A DNA stretch of 64,000 nt. Source: Inhella gelatinilytica (GTDB taxonomy: Bacteria > Pseudomonadota > Gammaproteobacteria > Burkholderiales > Burkholderiaceae_C). The stretch is from positions 1 to 64,000 of the forward strand of contig NZ_JAEDAL010000004.1 of assembly GCF_016093295.1 (NCBI RefSeq), given 5' to 3'. Position numbers and translations under genes: made by a program. Under the pieces are notes generated by a model. The model worked only from the letters and a program-made list of their open reading frames with translations, was not told the DNA's origin and did not search any database. Within the stretch, counting starts at the first letter, position 1, and each line of letters begins with the position of its first letter. Positions 137 to 12,383 of this stretch are shown here, piece after piece.

Positions 137-143
137 GTTCAAC
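137..143 (-). other. Candidate integron recombination core site (attI or first cassette junction)
   Basis: The minus strand reads GTTGAAC, which fits the integron core consensus GTTRRRY. It lies upstream of, and divergent from, the integrase gene, where attI is expected. Next to it the 10-mer CTGCATAAAA occurs twice, at 158-167 and 178-187, exactly 20 bases apart. Such repeats could be extra integrase binding sites. A seven-base match is weak on its own, so the call rests on position. Confidence 0.35.
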
Positions 144-239
144 GTGTTTTAGGGAGACTGCATAAAACCGGACGCTGCTGCATAAAAAGGCTGGCTCGCA
201 CCAGCGCAAGCGCTTGATCCGTCATGCATTTTCACCTTA

Positions 240-260
240 TTGACTGTTGTTTTATCCAGT
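240..260 (+). promoter_or_regulatory. Putative intI promoter with LexA-like box
   Basis: TTGACT at 240-245 resembles a -35 element; no good -10 follows. Overlapping it at 243-260 is an ACTGT-N8-CCAGT element, one base away from the LexA palindrome CTGT-N8-ACAG. LexA control of integron integrases is established in other integrons, so SOS control here is a reasonable inference. Confidence 0.45.
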
Positions 261-332
261 AGCAAACTGCGCCCTAAGTCGGCCGGTCCCGCAGGCGCTC
301 TGCAGGCCATGCGCCGACGCCAGGAGGCGATC

Positions 333-1394
333 ATGCAGCAAGCCCCTCACGGCCACGAGACCGAGTTTGCCCCACTTCGAGGCCAGGCCAGGCCCCTCAG
401 GCTGGTGGCACCGATGCCACCACTCAAGGCCCCCAAGCTGTTGGATCAGGTGCGTGAGCGCATCCGCTACCTGCACTACAGCCAACGCACGGAGGACGCT
501 TACCTGCATTGGATTCGCGCCTTTGTTCGGTTCCATGGCTTGCGTCACCCCACAGAGCTGGGTGCGCCCGAAGTCGAAGCGTTCCTTCGCTTTTTGGCCT
601 CGGAACGCAGGGTTGCACCGTCCACCCACAACCAGGCGCTGGCCGCGCTGATCTTTCTTTACGCCAAGGTGCTTGGCTTGGCCTTGCCGTGGATGCAGGA
701 GATTGGCCGCCCCAGGGCTTCACGGCATGTGCCCGTGGTGCTGACGCCCAGTGAAGTCACGGCGGTGCTGGACGGGCTACAGGGAGAGCACCGCTTGCTG
801 GGCCGGCTGCTTTACGGAACCGGGCTGCGCATCTCGGAGGCGCTGCAACTGCGCGTCAAGGATGTGGATTTCGGCCATCAGGCCTTGGTGGTGCGCCAGG
901 GCAAGGGCAAGAAGGACAGGATCGTGATGCTGCCCAGCAGCCTTCAAGCTTCGCTGAAGGATCAGCTGCTGGCTGCGCATGCGCTTTGGGAGGAGGATGT
1001 TGCAGGGGATCGCAGCGGCGTCGAGTTATCGGATGCGTTGGAGCGCAAGTACCCGCGGGCTGGCCATAGCTGGGCTTGGTTTTGGGTGTTTCCGCGGGAC
1101 CATCATTCGACCGACCCGCGCAGCGGGGTGGTGCGTCGCCACCACCTGTACGACCAGACCTTTCAGCGGGCCTTCAAGCGGGCGGTGCAGGCGGCGCGAA
1201 TCACCAAGCTGGTAACGCCGCACACTTTGCGCCATTGCTTCGCAACCCATTTGCTGCAGTCGGGCTACGACATTCGCACCGTCCAAGACTTGCTGGGCCA
1301 TGCCGATGTGGCCACCACGATGATTTACACCCATGTGCTGAAACTGGGCGGCGGCGCGGTGCGCTCGCCACTGGATGGCTTGGGGTTGGCTTGA
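333..1394 (+). CDS. intI: Integron integrase IntI (tyrosine recombinase)
   Basis: Site-specific tyrosine recombinase of 353 residues that captures and rearranges gene cassettes at attI and attC sites. The C-terminal catalytic set is complete: Arg about 166 (in TGLRISEAL), Lys about 193, His 297, Arg 300, His 323 and Tyr 332. The extra segment unique to integron integrases ([16 protein letters not shown]) is at about residues 239-254. The reading frame is open from 240, but a perfect AGGAGG at 322-327 lies five bases before ATG 333, so I take that start. The gene points away from the candidate attI and is followed 12 bp later by a small DUF6429 gene. It looks intact. The class is not one of the clinical mobile ones that I can recognise; a chromosomal environmental integron is likely. 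Confidence 0.93.
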
Positions 1395-1406
1395 ACGGAG
1401 GCCCGC

Positions 1407-1634
1407 ATGAATCTGAACACCGACCGCATCGACGACGCCGTGCTGGCCTTGCTGTTGCTGGGGCTGCAAGAGCAGAACCGGGTCTGGAAGTCCTTCGATT
1501 GGGAGGCCCTGAACCGGCTTCACGCGAAGGGGATGATTTCTGACCCTATGAGCAAGGCCAAGTCGGTGGTGTTGACTGAAGACGGCTTTTGAAAGGCCGA
1601 GGCCTTGATGGAAATGCTGTTTGCCCAGCGCTAA
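1407..1634 (+). pseudogene. DUF6429 family protein, interrupted by in-frame TGA
   Basis: Small acidic protein of unknown function, recognised from the conserved pattern DAVLALL, then FDWEALNRLHAKG and SKAKSVVLTEDG. ATG 1407 follows a GGAGG site and sits 12 bp after intI, so the two are probably co-transcribed. The frame stops at TGA 1590-1592 after 61 residues. In the same frame the next 13 codons read KAEALMEMLFAQR and end at TAA 1632-1634, which is the usual C-terminal helix of the family. One substitution (for example CGA to TGA) would explain this. The product is therefore shortened, or the gene is dead. Genes of this family are often found beside transposases and integrases. Confidence 0.75.
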
Positions 1635-2023
1635 CGCGCTATCGCCTTGGCACCGCGCAAGCAAACGGCGATGCGAACAGGGTTGTGGTCTTCTTGAGGG
1701 TGGGTTGCTGTCGGTTGCCGGGCCTAAGGCGCGCGGCTGCGATCAGCCATGACCGGGAGCTCGTGCGGCCAGCCCGAACGAATGCTTGTGGCCGGGTGCA
1801 GTCTCCCAAGACCACGCAACTAGCTGACAGCTTCCACTGCTACTCCGCAGCTGCAAACGACGTTGGAATCATTAGCAACGACAGGCCGAATACGATTGAC
1901 AGAGCAAGTGAGGCGCCTCAGAACCCCCGCGCGGGCTGGCTGCGCGACCCCCGCACAGCGGGGCGAGGGGCTGCCTTCGTCGGTGCCCACCGAAGACTGC
2001 TGAGGCTGGTCTGCCTTGAAGGG
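1635..2023. other. Intergenic region without recognisable genes
   Basis: About 390 bases between the DUF6429 gene and the recombinase module. Open frames here lack ribosome binding sites and familiar motifs. The only structure I see is a short GC hairpin at 1949-1963 (CCCCGC, ACA, GCGGGG) beside a CCCGCGCGGG palindrome. It could mark the end of the recombinase element or a terminator of the module, but has no T-run. Confidence 0.4.
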
Positions 2024-2401
2024 TCAGCGGACTTCCACCAACCTACCCATCTTTAACTGTCGGTTGTCTTCCTCGAGTTGGCGATTCCTCTCGCGCAGGT
2101 CATACACCTCCTCAAGTAGGCACAACTCTCGCTCGAGGGCTTGGTCGAGCCGCCGGGTCAGGGAGTCCCGCTCCTGCCGTAGCCCAGGCAGCGGGTCAGC
2201 GGCAAGCTTGGCCTCTGATTGGACCTTCGCAGCGGCATCGATGGCAGCAATCAACTCTGCGTAAGCAGGGCGTGATTTCTTGATGCTGCCACGCCCACTT
2301 CCTGCCTCAATGGCAACGGTGTCGTTGTTGATAGGGTCACCGCGAGCCACCAAGCGCTCAAGGGCGGCGTAGTACTTGTCCGTCTGAAGCTTGGCGCTCA
2401 T
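2024..2401 (-). CDS. Small coiled-coil protein of the recombinase module (TnpC-like position)
   Basis: A 125-residue protein, last gene of a four-gene minus-strand operon. Its ATG overlaps the stop of the upstream recombinase (ATGA), so translation is probably coupled. Residues about 1-60 look like a small helix-turn-helix region (NNDTVAIEAGSGRGSIKK), and about 70-120 form a charged heptad-like coiled coil (RQERDSLTRRLDQALERE and onward). Size and place match TnpC of Tn554, which follows two tyrosine recombinases and affects insertion orientation; this is an analogy of layout, not a shown homology. A KfrA-like DNA-binding role is the other possibility. Confidence 0.7.
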   Translation of the reverse strand: MSAKLQTDKYYAALERLVARGDPINNDTVAIEAGSGRGSIKKSRPAYAELIAAIDAAAKVQSEAKLAADPLPGLRQERDSLTRRLDQALERELCLLEEVYDLRERNRQLEEDNRQLKMGRLVEVR

Positions 2402-4344
2402 GCTGTTTTCTCCTTCAGTTTCTGGCGTGCTCGAAGCAAGACTTTGAGGTGGTTGACTTCCAGTCGGTGTTCAGCACTGCCCTCTTCCGTCGACTGCAGA
2501 CTGGCGACCACCGATTCTTGAGAGCCAATGATTCGCTCCAACCGCTTGGCATGGACAACGATGTTGATGCAGTTGCTTTCAAGGCAGTCGAATGGAATGG
2601 GTTCGAGCGGCGCTGTCTTGCACTCCCCAGTGGCGACACAACCTCCCAGCACAGTTTCTTTGTAGGCCAACTTGCCATCGCTGAAGAGTTTGAGCGTCTC
2701 CTGCGGGGTGCGGCTGGTCACGGTCTGGCCCATGAGCTCCGCGCCTCGGCCCAGCAAGGACTCGTCGGAGAACAGCATGCCCATGACATAGCCGAAGTAG
2801 CTGCTTTCCGCTTTGGCGGCATTCCACTCGTGGCTGAAGTGCTCGGGATCGAACACCAGGTTTACAGCCTTTGAGTAGCCGTCAGAGTAGTAACGGCGCA
2901 TCTCATCGGTGATGTGCTGCAGCTGGGCTTTGAGGGCCGGCAGACTGACCATGCCACTGCGGTGGGCATAGACAGACAGGCTGCGACGCAGTTGATGGAA
3001 GGCGAGCGGCCAAGGTTTGCCCACGACGATGCCGGCTCGATCCCACGCGCGCTCAAGTTCCAAGCGATCCAACTCGTCAATGTCTTCTTGAGTGACCAAG
3101 ATCTGGTCGCGCTCGACTAGGCGGAACTGGTGGTTATAGAGCGTTCGGGGGCTTTTAGCCTTGTACGGGTTTTTGGTAGAAGGGAACAGGAGTGCCTTTG
3201 TGTCGGTGGCGGGATCACCTCCGCTCACCTCCTGCAGGATGGACCCGGCAATCTGTTGGGCCAGGCGGATGGCCCGAGCCCCTTCGGGGCTTGTGACCCA
3301 TGAGGTGGGCTTCTTAACCCCTTTGTTCAACTTATGGGTGTAGCCGTTCACCAAATGGACCTGTCGGCCTCCGTCGTTGATGAAATCGACTGCATTGCGC
3401 AAGGGCAAGATCTTGGCCTCGCCCATCCGCATCCCAGTAAAGGCCATGACCACGTGCATAAGTTGAGACTGGTGGGCGTTGAGTCGTCCGGCGATGAAAC
3501 GGTCAAAGGAGACATGAGGGGCCAGTTCGTGGCCGAGGTCTTTCATGCGTTCTACGAAAACTTCCAGGGCTTTGGCGCGGTAGAACGATCTTTGCCCGCG
3601 GCTCCCGTCCGCAGGCGCATCGCGGGACGCCGTCATGCTTTGTCGGTAAGCATCAAGCAAGATGCCCAACTCGGCTTCAATGATGTCGAGGCCGGCAATC
3701 CACTTACCAAGCATGGCGCAGTAGATACGGCTGGGGATGACCGGCGTTTGCAGCTCATTGCCGCCTCGGCCCACCCGATCTCGAGCAATCGTGGCCTTGA
3801 GTTCAGCCAACCGAAGGTGCGCCTCAATCCCTAGGACTGCCTTGTTGCGCCAAAGGGTTTGGATCAGTGGACTGGTTGTCCGGGCATAGACTTGGTTCAA
3901 ATCCCCCAGATGCTCGGCCACCAAGCGAGGATCTGTCAGCAAATCGAAGAGCGAGAGGCCAAGCGCATGGGCTTTGGTGCTCCAGTGCCCCAAGGCGCGG
4001 TTGCTCGTTCGGACGGTTGCTAAGGCTCGGATACGTCCTGCGTCCATGTGCAGCCAGGTCAGGGCTTTGTGCTGCTCCCGGATCACTAGGCCAAGGCCTC
4101 GGGATGCTTCAGACACCGACAGTGTCGGATCGAGCTCGAAGAAGCCGAGTGAGGCGCCCGACACGCCGTCGGGGCTCTGAGCACTGAGGTCCCAACGAGG
4201 ATCGCCGTATCGAGAGCAAGGGGTTCCGTCGGCGTCGCGCGTGACGACCAGATCCGCAGGGAAGAACACATGGGGCCCAGGCTTGGTTCCCGCCAGGCCG
4301 GGCCCCAAGACCAGGTTGTCAGACCGATTTACTGGGAGTTCCAC
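2398..4344 (-). CDS. Large tyrosine recombinase, third of the module (recombinase C)
   Basis: A 648-residue site-specific recombinase. The C-terminal catalytic domain has the first Arg box (FTGMRMGE), an FHQLRR box giving His and Arg, then QHITDEMRRYY with the late His and the Tyr nucleophile, so it appears active. The family is usually 300-450 residues; the long N-terminal part is probably DNA binding. Near the C-terminus there is a Cys cluster (CVATGEC then CLESNC) that could bind zinc. It starts 9 bp after the stop of recombinase B and overlaps the small downstream gene by 4 bp, so the set is one transcription unit. Confidence 0.85.
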   Translation of the reverse strand: MELPVNRSDNLVLGPGLAGTKPGPHVFFPADLVVTRDADGTPCSRYGDPRWDLSAQSPDGVSGASLGFFELDPTLSVSEASRGLGLVIREQHKALTWLHMDAGRIRALATVRTSNRALGHWSTKAHALGLSLFDLLTDPRLVAEHLGDLNQVYARTTSPLIQTLWRNKAVLGIEAHLRLAELKATIARDRVGRGGNELQTPVIPSRIYCAMLGKWIAGLDIIEAELGILLDAYRQSMTASRDAPADGSRGQRSFYRAKALEVFVERMKDLGHELAPHVSFDRFIAGRLNAHQSQLMHVVMAFTGMRMGEAKILPLRNAVDFINDGGRQVHLVNGYTHKLNKGVKKPTSWVTSPEGARAIRLAQQIAGSILQEVSGGDPATDTKALLFPSTKNPYKAKSPRTLYNHQFRLVERDQILVTQEDIDELDRLELERAWDRAGIVVGKPWPLAFHQLRRSLSVYAHRSGMVSLPALKAQLQHITDEMRRYYSDGYSKAVNLVFDPEHFSHEWNAAKAESSYFGYVMGMLFSDESLLGRGAELMGQTVTSRTPQETLKLFSDGKLAYKETVLGGCVATGECKTAPLEPIPFDCLESNCINIVVHAKRLERIIGSQESVVASLQSTEEGSAEHRLEVNHLKVLLRARQKLKEKTA

Positions 4345-4353
4345 GAGGAGCTT

Positions 4354-6297
4354 TCAGGAGGGGTTCTGGGGCGAGGGGTTGGGACCCAGAACACCCAAGA
4401 GATGGAGTTGCTGGAGCTTTGTGGCCCAGTACCTGGACAGTTCGCCACGCTGCACTTGCGCCAGCGCAGCGGCATGCGCCTGCGGAGCCATGCGCTGGAT
4501 CTCGGCCAGCAAGGCATCGATGCGGTCGGTCACCGCGCCGTAAACACGGTCTGCGGCGAGGGAGTCGCCTTGCAGATGGACCAATCTGGAGAGGACATGC
4601 CGGCACGACATCAGCTTGAGGGCGTCGGCTTCATGTGCGTGGACGAGGTACTTGTTGCAGAAGAAGCAACCCTCGGTCTTCTTGCAGTCAGGCGCCACGA
4701 CGGGGTTGGCTTGCATGGGTTCGGGTTTGAGGTGCCCACGGCATTCGCCGGCCGGGATCTGAACGATTTGCAGGTCTGAACGGGGGGTGGCGGTGGAGCA
4801 CACCCGGTCGGTCAGGGAGGACAAGAAGCCTCCCAAGTCAGAGCGTCGAACATCCTCCTGAGCATTCGAATAGGCTCGGATTGCGGTCTGGATCGAGTGG
4901 CCCATGAGGTCGGCGGCCACCTTAACGCTGTACTTTCGGACCAAATGCTGCTGTTTAAAGGCTCGCAGTTGACGCAGGGTGGCCTTTGGGAGGTCGATGC
5001 GGAAGGCGGAGAAGCGCTTTCTCAGGTCATCAAGGAAGTCGTGATGCAAGGCGCGCAGGCCGACGAGGTGGGTTTTTCCTCGACGGCCTGGGGCGTACTC
5101 GAACTGCCCTTGAACGAACAGGTTCGCGCGATCAGGACAGTCCAAGCGTGCCAGCAGGGCCTGACGCAGACACAGGTAGTTGCGCAGGCGAGTGAAGGTT
5201 GTGCTGCTCAGTTGAACGGGCACAGGCTTGCCGCCTGCGCGGAACTTGATCACACGGTGCGTCAAGCTAACCCGGTCAGGATCATCGAGCTGGGCGTCAA
5301 TGCCCTCGGGCTCCTCAAACGCTTGAATCTGTGCCAAGTTCGCACCAGAGTCGCCAATGCACAGCCCGGCAAACGCCATACAAGCCAGCTCCATGAGGTG
5401 GGTCGCACCATAGGCAAGCGGGACGGCAACCTGGCAGCTGTCATCGGTGGAGGATGTACGCAAGAACCTCGAACCCTCGGTTGGCGTTGTCGCCTCCCGA
5501 GGCTCAGCCCCCAAGTCCATGGCCACCACTGAGTCGAACGCCGCCTGAAGGGTCGACATGAAAGTGCCGACGAGGGCATCAGGGGGCGGTTTTGTGCCGC
5601 CGCCACTGAGGTCTGGCAGGGGCTCAATGTCATCCAAGTAAACGCGATCGTGGATCTCCGACATCAGGGCGATGGCCTCCTGGTCGGCATACGCGGCTGT
5701 GCGATAAGAAATTTGGTGGGTTTGCAGGCGTTGCCTGAGGTGACGGTGGTAGCCCTTGAGTGCTTCGAGGGCGAGCTTGTCATTGCTTAGAACCGCCTCA
5801 TACCGACCCTGATGCTCGGCCTGATCGGCCCAGGTCAGAAGGGCCGCAAGGCACGTGAGGGACTGGTAGATCGTTGCAGCTCGTGCGTTTTTGAAACGAA
5901 AGTGTTTGGCGAGGCGGCCAATGACTTGGGGCAATGCATCGACGCGGGCGGGTGAGAGCGAGGCGGGGTTGAATCTGGTGTGGGGGTTGATGAACCTTCT
6001 GTCCAAGTAACACCACAGGAAGGCGAGGCACCGCCTGTCAGCTCCGATCTTGAGAATCGTGGACTCAGACACATAGACATCAGGCAGGCGCTCGAAGGGG
6101 TAGGCCAGTTCTGGCAAGCGCGTGGTGTAGCTGGGGGTCGCAGAGATCCATGAACTCGCAGGCACCCCCTGCGGGAACTCCTTGCCTACCGGCCTGTCTT
6201 TCATGACCTCTCCACCATGGCGCACAGGGTCGAAGCGGACGAGTTTTGCCGCCAAGCTGGATCCCTCAAGTTCCATAAACGGGTCAGAAGCTTTCAT
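4354..6297 (-). CDS. Large tyrosine recombinase-like protein, second of the module (recombinase B)
   Basis: A 647-residue protein with a tyrosine recombinase fold in its second half. The end of the domain is clear: LMGHSIQTAIRAYSN holds the late His and the Tyr, and ATLRQLRAF matches the HxxR box with the His replaced. The first catalytic Arg is not found where expected: the equivalent segment reads FAGLCIGDSGANL. It may therefore be a structural partner or a very divergent enzyme. A Cys-rich stretch (CKKTEGCFFC) near the C-terminus suggests a zinc ribbon. Spacing is 54 bp after recombinase A and 9 bp before recombinase C. Confidence 0.8.
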   Translation of the reverse strand: MKASDPFMELEGSSLAAKLVRFDPVRHGGEVMKDRPVGKEFPQGVPASSWISATPSYTTRLPELAYPFERLPDVYVSESTILKIGADRRCLAFLWCYLDRRFINPHTRFNPASLSPARVDALPQVIGRLAKHFRFKNARAATIYQSLTCLAALLTWADQAEHQGRYEAVLSNDKLALEALKGYHRHLRQRLQTHQISYRTAAYADQEAIALMSEIHDRVYLDDIEPLPDLSGGGTKPPPDALVGTFMSTLQAAFDSVVAMDLGAEPREATTPTEGSRFLRTSSTDDSCQVAVPLAYGATHLMELACMAFAGLCIGDSGANLAQIQAFEEPEGIDAQLDDPDRVSLTHRVIKFRAGGKPVPVQLSSTTFTRLRNYLCLRQALLARLDCPDRANLFVQGQFEYAPGRRGKTHLVGLRALHHDFLDDLRKRFSAFRIDLPKATLRQLRAFKQQHLVRKYSVKVAADLMGHSIQTAIRAYSNAQEDVRRSDLGGFLSSLTDRVCSTATPRSDLQIVQIPAGECRGHLKPEPMQANPVVAPDCKKTEGCFFCNKYLVHAHEADALKLMSCRHVLSRLVHLQGDSLAADRVYGAVTDRIDALLAEIQRMAPQAHAAALAQVQRGELSRYWATKLQQLHLLGVLGPNPSPQNPS

Positions 6298-6351
6298 GCA
6301 CTGGGAAGGTTTGTGATCGACTCTGAGAACCTGGCAAATCGAGGTCTGAAC

Positions 6352-7776
6352 CTAAGTCGCCGACTGGACCAAGGCCTGCAACACACGGTCCCAATCGGCT
6401 TTGGCCTTCTCCAGCTGGTGCATGTGCTCGTGGTACTCCAGGTAGCGGTCCGTGGTGGTCGGATGTTTGTGCCACATGAGTCTTCTCAACTGCTCGCGGG
6501 CCCACATGTACTTTTGCTTGGCGCCTTCTTTGCCGACGGAGTGAACAACCCAGTTCACACCGAACGTGGCGCGGAGGTCATGGAACCGGTACTTGAAGCC
6601 AGGGATGGTCTTGCGAACCTCGGGGATGACTCGGTCTTTGATGAACGAGCGAAGGTTCTGTCCCGTGGGCGAAGAACGGCGCAGGACCTCATCTGCGCCC
6701 CGCATGGCGTTCCGATCGTCCTTGGACTCGTAGTACGGTCCGCCTTGGTTGCTCAAGAACAGGTAGTTCATCGGGTGTTGACCCAACTTGGACTTGTCTC
6801 GACGTGAACGAAGACGTTCTGAGCAGGCATATTGATGAAGCCACTCGTAGAGAAACTCAGGAATTACCAGATAGACGTTGGGCACGTCGTTCTTGGTGTC
6901 GATGCCCGTCCCTGGTCCACACAGAAGCTTTAAGGGCCACTGTGTGATGCTGGACGGCGGGGTTTGGAAGTGGCCCCACCGCAGGGTCAATACCGTCTGC
7001 TCACGAGCGCCGGTGAACAGCGCCAGGTAGTGCATCAATTCATGGTCCCGATTGCCCAACTTCTTGAGTGCAGCGACCAAGGCACGCTGTTCTTCAGAGA
7101 GCAAAGGACGGAGTTTTCCGCCATCGTCAATGGTCGCGTCCCACGGGTCATCACGCTTGGGGACATGAATGGCGATGTCGGTGGAGGCGACGATGTGGAC
7201 CTGGCTGAAGCCCTTGTCGTCGCGGTAGCGAAGACCGATCTCCTTGTCGACCCACGGTGGGTTCTTCGGAACGAACCCCATCTTCATGTCGTGAATCAGG
7301 AAGCGATACATGCCGATGACGGCGCTCATCTTTCGGCTTGCAGTGGATGCTTTCGCCTCGCCTCTATTGATCAAGTCCTGAAGGCGCGTCTTGTAAAGGT
7401 AGGTGGGCCGGAGGTACTTGTCGACGGAGGAGAAGTCATCCCACTCAAGCCCCATGTCTTCGAGGAAGCCTAAGTAATCGCGAAGCCCCTGAGCCACAGA
7501 GGACAAGGAAGAGAGATGCAGCGGACGAGCGCGTGCTCGGTCAAGCAGCCAGAGGCAGGCTGGCGCCCAGGGGGAGCCGTCTCCGTTTAGGACAAGCGGG
7601 AACTGGGGAAAGGTGGACCACTTGCTCTCTTTGTCGGGCGCCACTTCACGCCAATACTTGACATGCTGCCCCCTGACTTGGTGGTCAACAGGGATGAAAC
7701 CAGTGCCAGGCGTGGCACTGACTTTGCTGCGTCGGAGGATTGGGAGCGTGTGAACAGCAGGCTTAGCAACGGACAT
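6352..7776 (-). CDS. Tyrosine recombinase, first of the module (recombinase A)
   Basis: A 474-residue site-specific recombinase with a complete catalytic set: Arg 258 in FTGAREQTV, His 399 and Arg 402 in FHDLRATF, late His 436 or 438 in MWHKHPTT and Tyr 445 in DRYLEY. The N-terminal 200 residues would hold the core-binding domain. It is the promoter-proximal gene of the four-gene operon. Its ATG lies only 16 bases after the CCA end of a tRNA-Leu on the same strand, with no obvious promoter between, so it may be transcribed from the tRNA promoter. Three adjacent recombinases recall RIT elements and Tn554 tnpABC, although these proteins are larger than RIT proteins. Confidence 0.88.
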   Translation of the reverse strand: MSVAKPAVHTLPILRRSKVSATPGTGFIPVDHQVRGQHVKYWREVAPDKESKWSTFPQFPLVLNGDGSPWAPACLWLLDRARARPLHLSSLSSVAQGLRDYLGFLEDMGLEWDDFSSVDKYLRPTYLYKTRLQDLINRGEAKASTASRKMSAVIGMYRFLIHDMKMGFVPKNPPWVDKEIGLRYRDDKGFSQVHIVASTDIAIHVPKRDDPWDATIDDGGKLRPLLSEEQRALVAALKKLGNRDHELMHYLALFTGAREQTVLTLRWGHFQTPPSSITQWPLKLLCGPGTGIDTKNDVPNVYLVIPEFLYEWLHQYACSERLRSRRDKSKLGQHPMNYLFLSNQGGPYYESKDDRNAMRGADEVLRRSSPTGQNLRSFIKDRVIPEVRKTIPGFKYRFHDLRATFGVNWVVHSVGKEGAKQKYMWAREQLRRLMWHKHPTTTDRYLEYHEHMHQLEKAKADWDRVLQALVQSAT

Positions 7777-7792
7777 GCACGGGCGGTGTCCG

Positions 7793-7879
7793 TGGTGCCG
7801 GCGGCGGGACTTGAACCCGCATCTCCGTTAGGAGGAGGGATTTTAAGTCCCTTGCGTATACCGATTTCGCCACGCCGGC
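7793..7879 (-). tRNA. tRNA-Leu (anticodon UAA)
   Basis: An 87-nt leucine tRNA with encoded CCA. The acceptor stem is GCCGGCG paired with CGCCGGC, the anticodon loop is CTTAAAA (anticodon UAA), and a long variable arm and a GGTTCAAGT T-loop are present. It is complete and differs from the truncated tRNA-Leu next to it. It precedes the recombinase operon by 16 bases. Confidence 0.93.
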
Positions 7880-7955
7880 AGCGGGCACATCAGTGATGAT
7901 GTGTCCACAATAGCAGAATCTGCCAAAGCAGCAAAATCTGAGCAAGTCTGCCAGT

Positions 7956-8000
7956 AGCGGAGTTTAAGTCCGCTGCGTCTACCGATTTCGCCACCCAGGC
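7956..8000 (-). pseudogene. 5' half of a second tRNA-Leu(UAA), truncated
   Basis: The 45 bases from 8000 down to 7956 form the 5' acceptor strand, D arm and complete anticodon arm of a leucine tRNA (loop CTTAAAC, anticodon UAA). Beyond the anticodon stem the sequence no longer matches a tRNA: variable arm, T arm and 3' acceptor strand are missing. It shares the block GTGGCGAAATCGGTA with the intact tRNA-Leu 76 bases away but differs elsewhere. It looks like the remains of the original host gene after an insertion in or just after the anticodon arm. Confidence 0.8.
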
Positions 8001-8021
8001 CGGTGGTCGGGACGAAACTGC

Positions 8022-8097
8022 TGGAGCGGGAAACGAGGCTCGAACTCGCGACCTCAACCTTGGCAAGGTTGCGCTCTACCAACTGAGCTATTCCCGC
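8022..8097 (-). tRNA. tRNA-Gly (anticodon GCC), copy 1
   Basis: A 76-nt glycine tRNA with anticodon loop TTGCCAA, acceptor stem GCGGGAA and encoded CCA. Its sequence is identical to the two further copies downstream in coordinates. Confidence 0.96.
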
Positions 8098-11046: not shown

Positions 11047-12312
11047 TTACGCGCTGGCCTTGGCCTCGCGGTAAACCAGCAAGGGTTTGCTGCCATCCGT
11101 GATGGTGCCTTCGTCCACCACCACTTGGGCCACCCCTTCCAGACTGGGCAAATCAAACATGGTGTCGATCAGCGCATGCTCCAGGATGGACCGCAGGCCT
11201 CGCGCGCCCGTTTTGCGCTGCAGGGCCTTCGCCGCAATGGCGTGCAGGGCACTGGGGCGAACCTCCAGATCCACCCCTTCCATGGCCAAGAGCTGCTGGT
11301 ACTGTTTGATCAGCGCGTTCTTGGGCTCCACCAGAATCTTGATCAGGGCATCTTCCGTCAACTCGGCCAGCGTGGCGATCACGGGCAAGCGGCCCACCAG
11401 TTCGGGAATGATCCCGAACTTCATCAAATCTTCAGGCTCGATCTCTTTGAAGAGCTCGCCAACCCGCTTCTCGCTCTTGCTGGTGACCGTGGCGCCAAAC
11501 CCGATTCCGGATTTCTCCGAACGGTTCTGGATGACCTTTTCCAGCCCGTCAAACGCCCCACCGCAAATGAATAGGATGTTGGTGGTGTCGATTTGCAAGA
11601 AATCTTGATTGGGATGCTTGCGGCCACCTTGGGGCGGCACCGAGGCCATCGTGCCTTCGATGAGCTTCAGCAAGGCCTGCTGAACCCCCTCACCGGACAC
11701 GTCGCGGGTGATCGACGGGTTGTCCGCCTTGCGACTGATCTTGTCGATTTCGTCGATGTAAACAATGCCCCGCTGGGCTTTCTCGACGTCGTAATTGCAG
11801 TTCTGGAGCAATTTTTGGATGATGTTTTCGACATCCTCCCCCACGTAGCCGGCTTCGGTCAGCGTGGTCGCGTCCGCAATCACAAACGGCACGTTCAGCA
11901 GGCGCGCCAGCGTCTGCGCCAGCAGCGTTTTGCCCGATCCCGTGGGGCCGATTAGCAGGATGTTGCTCTTGCTGAGCTCCACCTCGTTGCCCGACTCCCC
12001 CAAGTGGCGCAGCCGTTTGTAGTGGTTGTAAACCGCCACCGCCAGCGTGCGCTTGGCGGCGTCCTGGTCAATCACATACTGATCCAGCGTGGACTTGATC
12101 TCAGCGGGGGTCGGCAAATCCGATTTGGCGCTGCGCAAGGCAGGCGCCGGGGCGGCGACTTCGTCCCGAATAATGTCATTGCACAGTTCGATGCATTCAT
12201 CACAGATGAAGACCGACGGGCCGGCAATGAGTTTCTTGACTTCGTGTTGGCTCTTGCCGCAGAAGGAGCAATAGAGCACCTTCTCGCTGGAGCCGCCTTT
12301 CTTATCAGGCAT
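11047..12312 (-). CDS. clpX: ClpXP protease ATPase subunit ClpX
   Basis: AAA+ unfoldase that recognises substrates and feeds them to ClpP. The 421-residue protein begins with the zinc-binding domain (CSFC and CDEC, four Cys), followed by Walker A GPTGSGKT, the pore loop GYVGEDVE, Walker B IDEIDKI and a C-terminal helical domain. I place the start at ATG 12312 (MPDKKGG), as in homologues; eleven codons upstream are also open. The gene follows clpP on the same strand, giving the common tig-clpP-clpX-lon order. Confidence 0.97.
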
Positions 12313-12383
12313 GGGTCGTCTCTCGGCGGCTTTGGAGCGGCCCATGATAGACCAGGCACCCCATCGCCGCGATCAGGGGTTCT

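Follow-up and report, generated by a model that had tools for sequence, protein, structure and literature searches.

A GInt-type recombinase module at a split tRNA-Leu(UAA) gene: a probable integrative element with a replacement tRNA and an adjoining integron

Introduction

How could an integrative element break a host tRNA gene in its anticodon arm, and which gene would then supply the tRNA? This question is raised by one end of a 64,000-nt stretch of bacterial DNA (bases 1-64000 of contig C18 in genome G000, a 3.5-Mb draft of 23 contigs; hereafter the window), where a four-gene recombinase module stands next to a complete tRNA-Leu(UAA) gene and to the 5′ half of a different one. An earlier note on this DNA had suggested that an element inserted in the anticodon region of the host tRNA-Leu gene and brought a complete tRNA as a replacement, and had likened the module to Tn554 and RIT elements. 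Here we describe both halves of the host gene, the placement of the module among known families and an integron that adjoins it. We consider it probable, at roughly 80%, that the locus is a GInt with the anticodon arm of tRNA-Leu(UAA) as its target, a rescue tRNA of its own and an integron as cargo.

GInts are described as site-specific islands with a four-gene operon, ginABCD (Bardaji et al. 2017, PMC5385486); published accounts name ginA and ginB as the catalytic genes and ginC as the degenerate one. They are also described as having a short AT-rich 3′ end and imperfect chimeric direct repeats of 10-17 nt on their flanks, which stem from 6-nt cuts, and as leaving in the form of a circle, with a need for all four genes. 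Strand-biased circularizing elements (SEs; Nonaka 2022, PMC9345347; Idola 2023, PMC10214605) show an asymmetry in which 6 bp of the target are kept at the intA side and 6 bp of the circle at the far side (PMC10214605). Further marks of SEs are circularisation that is strand-biased and leaves no empty site, and the presence of Tfp and Srap homologues. According to the same source, SE genes are reported from Gammaproteobacteria only and GInts also from Betaproteobacteria.

Results

The host tRNA-Leu(UAA) gene is split between two contigs

The partial tRNA-Leu(UAA) that had been noticed beside the module matched the intact gene of the same-genus relative G004 over its whole length (Table 1); five relatives of the same genus (G001-G005) were compared, and tRNA genes were called with ARAGORN. 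The missing 3′ half, for which the earlier note had proposed a search, was located through the sequence left of the G004 tRNA on another contig of the same genome, outside the window (C23:3628-3675). Taken as nt 42-92 of the gene, it occupies C23:3625-3675 and is 100% identical to the G004 gene. Because the two halves overlap by 3 nt and jointly span all 92 nt of that gene, a chance match is not a reasonable explanation. With the G004 gene as query, no whole native tRNA-Leu(UAA) was found in G000. The site is empty in relatives: G002-G005 have the tRNA-Leu(UAA) gene whole beside a Gly/Cys/Gly tRNA cluster, while neither cluster nor locus was found in G001. The half on C23 and the unbroken gene at this position in four relatives support an insertion in the anticodon region. 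The arrangement that the earlier note had named as refuting it, the same fragment next to an intact tRNA without the recombinases, was not seen in any of these four. No ginB was detected at E<=0.001 in 99 genomes besides G000, including the five same-genus relatives, although remote modules may escape this search since gin proteins diverge fast.

These data leave little room for a local duplication of tRNA-Leu followed by decay beside an unrelated recombinase operon. Copies of tRNA-Gly are indeed repeated in the cluster, but the missing half lies on another contig beside non-native DNA, only one copy, unbroken, stands at the locus in each of the four relatives, and in a second genome, described below, a tRNA followed by ginA likewise abuts a split tRNA. 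We regard this explanation as scarcely credible.

The symmetry of the element ends, combined with the 6-nt cuts and footprints published for GInts and SEs, suggests a crossover frame of 6 nt. In this frame the junction at the module (attL) would retain the host sequence, and the other junction (attR, C23:3622-3627) reads CATCGC and differs from it. The ends also carry inverted repeats, which would count as support, not proof. GC content is 55% at C23:3251-3750 compared with 64-71% beyond position 3750, and is thus lower, yet not AT-rich. To the right of the 3′ half follow a gene for a GntR/aminotransferase-type regulator and further genes; in G004, these flank genes share a contig with the tRNA cluster and are found on the same side, at a distance of about 28 kb. 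Sequence shows that the two halves belong together, in a neighbourhood that has undergone rearrangement.

Two repeats were also observed. An intergenic repeat of ~83 bp on C23 (L037:5744-5830) is matched at dozens of scattered places in G003 and G004, and the end of contig C1 of G000 (L038:4690-4959) is a tandem repeat with units like cttccagtcgctcgg, which is perhaps the cause of the assembly break. A scan of L037 and two further loci (L039, L073) against Rfam at the gathering threshold gave no matches.

Table 1. Features at the left end of the window (positions in the window)
Feature	Position	Strand	Remarks
Start of first cassette, cut by contig end	1..142	(-)	cassettes with attC-like sites on C23:1-3250
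attI crossover GTTGAAC, by motif	137..143	(-)	homology to G005 integron starts at 139-140
Integron integrase intI	240..1394	(+)	NCBIfam integron integrase, 548.6 bits vs cut-off 435
DUF6429 small protein, just downstream of intI	1407..1592	(+)	cargo
Gene 4, ginD/srap-like small protein	2024..2401	(-)	125 aa; conserved EAG...IKKSR block
Gene 3, large tyrosine recombinase (by motifs)	2398..4344	(-)	648 aa; R306, H450, R453, H477, Y486; C-terminal conserved cysteines
Gene 2, tyrosine-recombinase-fold protein, putative tfp/ginC-like role	4354..6297	(-)	647 aa; lacks first catalytic Arg and first His
Gene 1, ginA/intA-like tyrosine recombinase (by motifs)	6352..7776	(-)	474 aa; catalytic R258, H399, R402, H436, Y445
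Complete tRNA-Leu(UAA) of the element	7793..7879	(-)	ARAGORN call; anticodon stem AGGGA/TCCCT
Element left end and tRNA leader	7880..7956	(-)	possible promoter, -35 TTTGCT / -10 TATTGT, by eye
Inferred 6-nt crossover CTCCGC, attL	7957..7962	(-)	same as host gene
Native tRNA-Leu(UAA) 5′ half, nt 1-44, attL	7957..8000	(-)	44/44 nt identical to intact G004 gene; no ARAGORN call

A complete tRNA-Leu(UAA) lies at the element end

The intact tRNA-Leu(UAA) that the earlier note had seen beside the module was called by ARAGORN. It ends 16 bp before gene 1 and 77 bp inside the element end, and it differs from the host gene in the acceptor and anticodon stems, the latter being GCGGA/TCCGC in ten aligned host-type genes (carried copy, Table 1). 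Its identity is 73-75% to the four genes of the genus and reaches 80% for genes from other genera. In a scan of G000 that was not exhaustive, no other tRNA-Leu(UAA) was seen; the other tRNA-Leu genes met there have the anticodons CAA, TAG and CAG. As the sole tRNA-Leu(UAA) seen, with stems unlike those of the host gene, the carried copy looks like a replacement, in line with what had been suggested, and a second element with a tRNA before ginA (see below) agrees with this.

The genetic code implies that such a tRNA should be needed, since TTA codons occur in the open reading frames (ORFs): one in the ORF that we take to be lon and 16 in 24 mechanically chosen, non-overlapping window ORFs of at least 300 aa. 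The leader in front of the tRNA contains a possible promoter, and a like-placed pair, TTTGCT / TAGAGT, was found by eye in the leader of the second element. When leader, tRNA and ginA start were used together as a query, 52 plasmid records matched; among the matches listed, only query positions 76-174, the tRNA part, were covered.

The usual rule for islands in tRNA genes, according to the Islander paper (PMC4383910), is that a fragment brought along by the island makes the split gene whole again. An ordinary island of this type, in which a portion of the tRNA lies within the attachment site and rebuilds the target, would fit the presence of a tyrosine recombinase and the fact that anticodon-centred sites are common (2083 islands in the Islander table, PMC4383910). 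However, neither host half is completed at our locus, ARAGORN calls no tRNA at either junction, and the intact tRNA stands alone inside the element, with the identity to the four genus genes given above. This reading is therefore very improbable.

The four-gene module is of GInt/SE type

Four ORFs on the minus strand (474, 647, 648 and 125 aa) run head to tail, and strand and spacing suggest a single operon. The window proteins were compared in alignments that took in as many as 16 further loci; gene 3 of L096, which is split into two ORFs and was left unmended, was excluded from the gene 3 alignments. The catalytic Arg, His, Arg, His and Tyr of gene 1 are kept in all 17 rows, and those of gene 3 in all 16 rows except for the first His of L069. 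Gene 2 is devoid of the first Arg and of the first His, and the gene 4 proteins have the EAG...IKKSR block in common.

The three large proteins had been described as three tyrosine recombinases. Motifs agree with this description; none of the three reaches the Pfam cut-off, however, and gene 2 is degenerate in its catalytic residues. Phage_integrase of Pfam matches 9 of the 14 aligned gene 1 members, the window protein not among them, and gene 3 with E 0.0015, below the cut-off. The gene 2 profile (A2) matches XerD (E 0.00056), and the gene 1 family (A1) has a weak PDB match to XerA (E 0.0027). PDB matches of the gene 3 family (A3) look unrelated to recombinases and were set aside as chance. 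Comparison of the families with hhalign gave weak links (A1-A3, probability 2.4; A1-A2, 81.5 over 85 columns; A2-A3, 5.3), so that the kinship of the three proteins is drawn from the motifs and the weak Pfam and PDB matches. The module lies where the earlier note had placed it, but the feature as a whole is larger: it leaves the contig start leftwards, and its other end is on C23.

Gene order, protein sizes and catalytic pattern match those of GInt/SE modules, including L111, where the product of the second gene (WP_034039553.1) has been published as the Tfp of an SE. By these sequence features the module is of GInt/SE type (ginABCD-like), not Tn554 or RIT, and the earlier family guess has to be corrected. 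Another candidate SE reference, H56 (L110), was dropped because a module of this kind is absent from its gene table. Trees of genes 1 and 3 place the window outside a fully supported branch (100/100) that holds the SE reference L111 and nearest to plasmid modules of Paraburkholderia and Cupriavidus, although long branches make its exact position unsure. The plasmid modules were represented by 11 stretches fetched out of 169 plasmid records with a GinA match. Gene 2 is 17% identical to its SE counterpart.

Whether the element might be an SE rather than a GInt has to be weighed against these trees. A module in which genes 1 and 3 are catalytic and gene 2 is degenerate corresponds to the description of SEs, while published accounts of GInts have a degenerate ginC. 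Moreover, the 6-nt asymmetry of the junctions fits the SE rule, and gene 4 resembles the Srap of the SE (32% identity) more closely than it does Pseudomonas-type modules (25-28%). The catalytic pattern, however, is common to all aligned modules and cannot separate GInts from SEs. The placement of genes 1 and 3 outside the branch of the SE reference speaks against an SE, as does the reported host range of SEs (Gammaproteobacteria only, with GInts also in Betaproteobacteria; PMC10214605), our host being presumably betaproteobacterial. We therefore consider an SE unlikely and provisionally file the element on the GInt side, with published GInts compared by description and a sequence comparison to the one SE reference.

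GinA matches are rare: apart from G000, they occur in 6 of 398 genomes in the order sample and in 3 of 369 in the class sample. Viral contigs yielded no ginA relatives, and phage records a single distant match (27%). Two modules from genomes of the same taxonomic order as the window, L071 (G283:C2) and L072 (G327:C1), group with the SE reference in the trees of genes 1 and 3 (100/100). If their order is Burkholderiales, as we suspect, the host range of SEs would widen.

A second element points to entry in both orientations

The sole relative of GinA found in genome contigs (57% identity) is L034, from the metagenome-assembled genome (MAG) LL3.bin32. Here, a tRNA-Leu(UAA) at 7583-7668 is followed by ginA at 7691, and the left end is joined, at GTCCGC, to the 3′ half of a tRNA-Leu gene in reverse orientation. 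Its carried tRNA has the anticodon stem GGGGG/CCCCT. By their junction sequences, the window element and L034 would represent entries into opposite strands of the anticodon arm, and since the anticodon stem is an inverted repeat, either direction of entry is possible. Furthermore, contig C63 of the same MAG breaks off 78 nt into an uncut tRNA-Leu(UAA) and overlaps the element contig by 52 nt, which suggests that the cut and uncut states coexist in the sampled population. No ginB was found in this MAG.

An integron adjoins the module

The description in the earlier note held for the module and the tRNAs and missed an adjoining integron. Next to gene 4 we found an integron integrase gene, and window positions 219-1740 are homologous to the intI locus of G001. 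On the far side of the assembly gap, C23:1-3250 contains short ORFs with attC-like hairpins between them. Four of its about five array units have BLAST matches in intI-bearing loci of the genus (~70-98% identity). The array is oriented toward the tRNA 3′ half and ends ~370 nt short of it. The integron parts therefore flank the gap: intI, attI and an attC array are all present, with array and intI on two contigs and attC sites partly identified by eye. Strict attC patterns found nothing; a looser pattern gave two sites in C23:1-3700 (one per strand), none in 300 bases at the C18 end and four in C17. Because this automatic pattern proved non-discriminating against controls (see Discussion), the attC sites were identified by eye and BLAST similarity. 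The simplest order would be tRNA 5′ half, carried tRNA, ginABCD, intI, attI, cassettes and tRNA 3′ half, and the island would measure at least 11.5 kb if continuous.

The same type of intI is found elsewhere in G001 (94% identity) and G005 (90%), with no gin match in the 8.6 and 20 kb of sequence covered, respectively; acquisition of the integron from within the genus is therefore probable. The same observation could mean that module and integron are separate neighbours, the integron being a resident of the chromosome and the GInt ending before it. In favour of this, the G005 intI lies beside genes of the histidinol-dehydrogenase and EPSP-synthase families, and the gap between C18 and C23 is unread. 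However, the tRNA halves bracket both module and integron, with intI and attI on the gin side and the cassette array close to the other half, and the polarity of the array fits the order intI-attI-cassettes-attR. We consider separate neighbours rather improbable, somewhat more so than the SE reading above, and keep the integron as cargo of the GInt.

Several further observations concern integrons and their repeats. An IS110-type transposase gene (L037:1339-2355) lies on C23 where an attC-like site of the array is interrupted, an arrangement that resembles IS1111-attC elements. A second integron integrase (G000:C17:302244-303233; 525.6 bits), with attC-like sites nearby, is ~71% identical to that of the island. 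In G005, a repeat of ~272 bp flanks intI on both sides (L074:2083-2353 and 12059-12330). This repeat recurs in other integron loci of the genus (L075, L077, L081), once inside an intI gene, and may be a unit similar to miniature inverted-repeat transposable elements (MITEs).

Discussion

Our analysis suggests how a GInt could use the anticodon arm of tRNA-Leu(UAA) as its target. In the proposed mechanism, the products of the catalytic genes 1 and 3, together with degenerate gene 2 and small gene 4, would recombine the joined ends of a presumed circular form with the host anticodon arm. The 6-nt crossover would fall at nt 39-44 of the tRNA, which comprise the last loop base and the 3′ strand of the anticodon stem. 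Insertion would split the host gene in two, and the complete tRNA-Leu(UAA), situated at the very end of the element before ginA, would take over from the broken gene, provided that it is expressed and used. As the carried anticodon stem differs from that of the host, the carried copy is without the target core and should escape re-insertion. The inverted-repeat character of the stem would permit entry in either direction, and the cargo would be an integron whose intI, attI and cassette array reach the right island end. Mobility of the element, with active recombinases and a continuous island across the assembly gap, and its immunity to re-insertion are parts of this proposal.

Several observations weigh against it. 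At the junctions, only 3 nt in a row (CGC) are shared, with no repeat as long as 10 nt seen, and the inverted repeats of the ends are modest, with 11 of 19 matches, a score attained by 730 of 200,000 random pairs. The neighbourhood to the right of the C23 half is unlike that of the relatives, in which the corresponding sites are 28 kb (G004) and ~670 kb (G003) apart, and a gene we take to be murI-like adjoins tRNA-Leu in G004 but is on C1 in G000. The stretch from C18:1 to C23:1 is unassembled, so that one continuous island is unproved, and in controls the looser attC pattern gave four sites in C23:3701-20000 and five in window positions 8001-64000, showing no discrimination. A sigma-70 scanner found no sites at 7600-8050, which leaves the leader promoter as a candidate read by eye. 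The carried tRNAs of the window and L034 are 79% identical, no closer than the window copy is to some host genes, and a common origin is thus unsupported. L034 itself is truncated within ginA, belongs to a contig with 2.4x coverage according to the contig name, and lacks a second end among the sequences found. Furthermore, a tRNA-Leu stands right before ginA in only 2 of the 22 ginA-like loci scanned for tRNAs (window, L034, L067-L072, L092-L099, L106-L109, L111 and L112, with the scan of L097-L099 covering flanks of only ~1.5 kb). The closeness of gene 4 to Srap counts against the GInt assignment as well.

A more far-reaching version of the proposal is tentative, and we would rate it at slightly worse than even odds. 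It envisages a GInt clade specialised on the anticodon arm of tRNA-Leu(UAA), with a replacement tRNA in the operon leader whose altered stem is immune to re-insertion, and a resident integron that has been mobilised. If such elements leave by copy-out, as proposed for SEs, the native gene would stay unrepaired and the host would depend on the island, so that the carried tRNA would act as a toxin-free addiction module.

If the proposal is true, an integrative element can replace rather than repair its tRNA target, so that reading of UUA codons in the host comes to rely on the island. The proposal also offers a simple and testable idea of how an element could avoid its own tRNA and why it can enter in both orientations. 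Moreover, it points to a possible route for chromosomal integrons to become mobile without a transposon or plasmid. The locus thereby suggests both how an island might render its host dependent and how integrons might travel.

Among known systems, the GInt/SE module type is established, and a tRNA-replacing GInt with integron cargo would be new. At the level of titles, abstract openings and passages, the literature showed neither a tRNA gene occupied by a GInt or SE nor a replacement tRNA carried by one, and no integron as GInt cargo, although the resistance cargo of Pseudomonas aeruginosa GInts (PMC5385486) may include integrons. Like GInts, our element has three recombinase-like proteins and a small fourth one at one element end, cargo that adjoins the fourth gene (the DUF6429 gene and intI ~430 bp past ginD), and an apparently site-specific insertion that would involve staggered cuts of 6 nt and leave attL and attR chimeric. 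The main text of PMC5385486 names, among other GInt targets, ssb and the genes for an ABC transporter and a ribonucleotide reductase; the same main text, supplements aside, describes no tRNA target, carried tRNA or integron cargo. With SEs, it shares the four core genes with a degenerate second one, and the 6-bp asymmetry is compatible; in contrast, its genes 1 and 3 are on a different branch from the one SE reference, and the words tRNA and integron do not occur in the main text of PMC10214605. Tn554 and RIT elements likewise have several tyrosine recombinases in a row. However, Tn554 (tnpABC), in which TnpC is the counterpart of Srap/GinD, has no counterpart of gene 2 (PMC10214605), which is present in the window module, and the archetype RIT recombinases measure 315-410 aa, all with the catalytic tyrosine, between 34-bp terminal inverted repeats (PMC10214605), whereas the large window proteins have 474, 647 and 648 aa and one of them is degenerate.

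The cargo has the intI, attI and attC cassettes of mobile and chromosomal integrons. Integrons on transposons, genomic islands and plasmids are known (PMC9229058); a GInt carrying an integron of the chromosomal type was not met in the literature covered. Finally, our element resembles Islander islands and tycheposons (the latter as treated in PMC10872708) in that it sits in or at a tRNA gene and has a tyrosine recombinase close by. In contrast to the islands described in passages of the Islander paper (PMC4383910), which bring a restoring fragment, it appears to replace its target by a full foreign tRNA.

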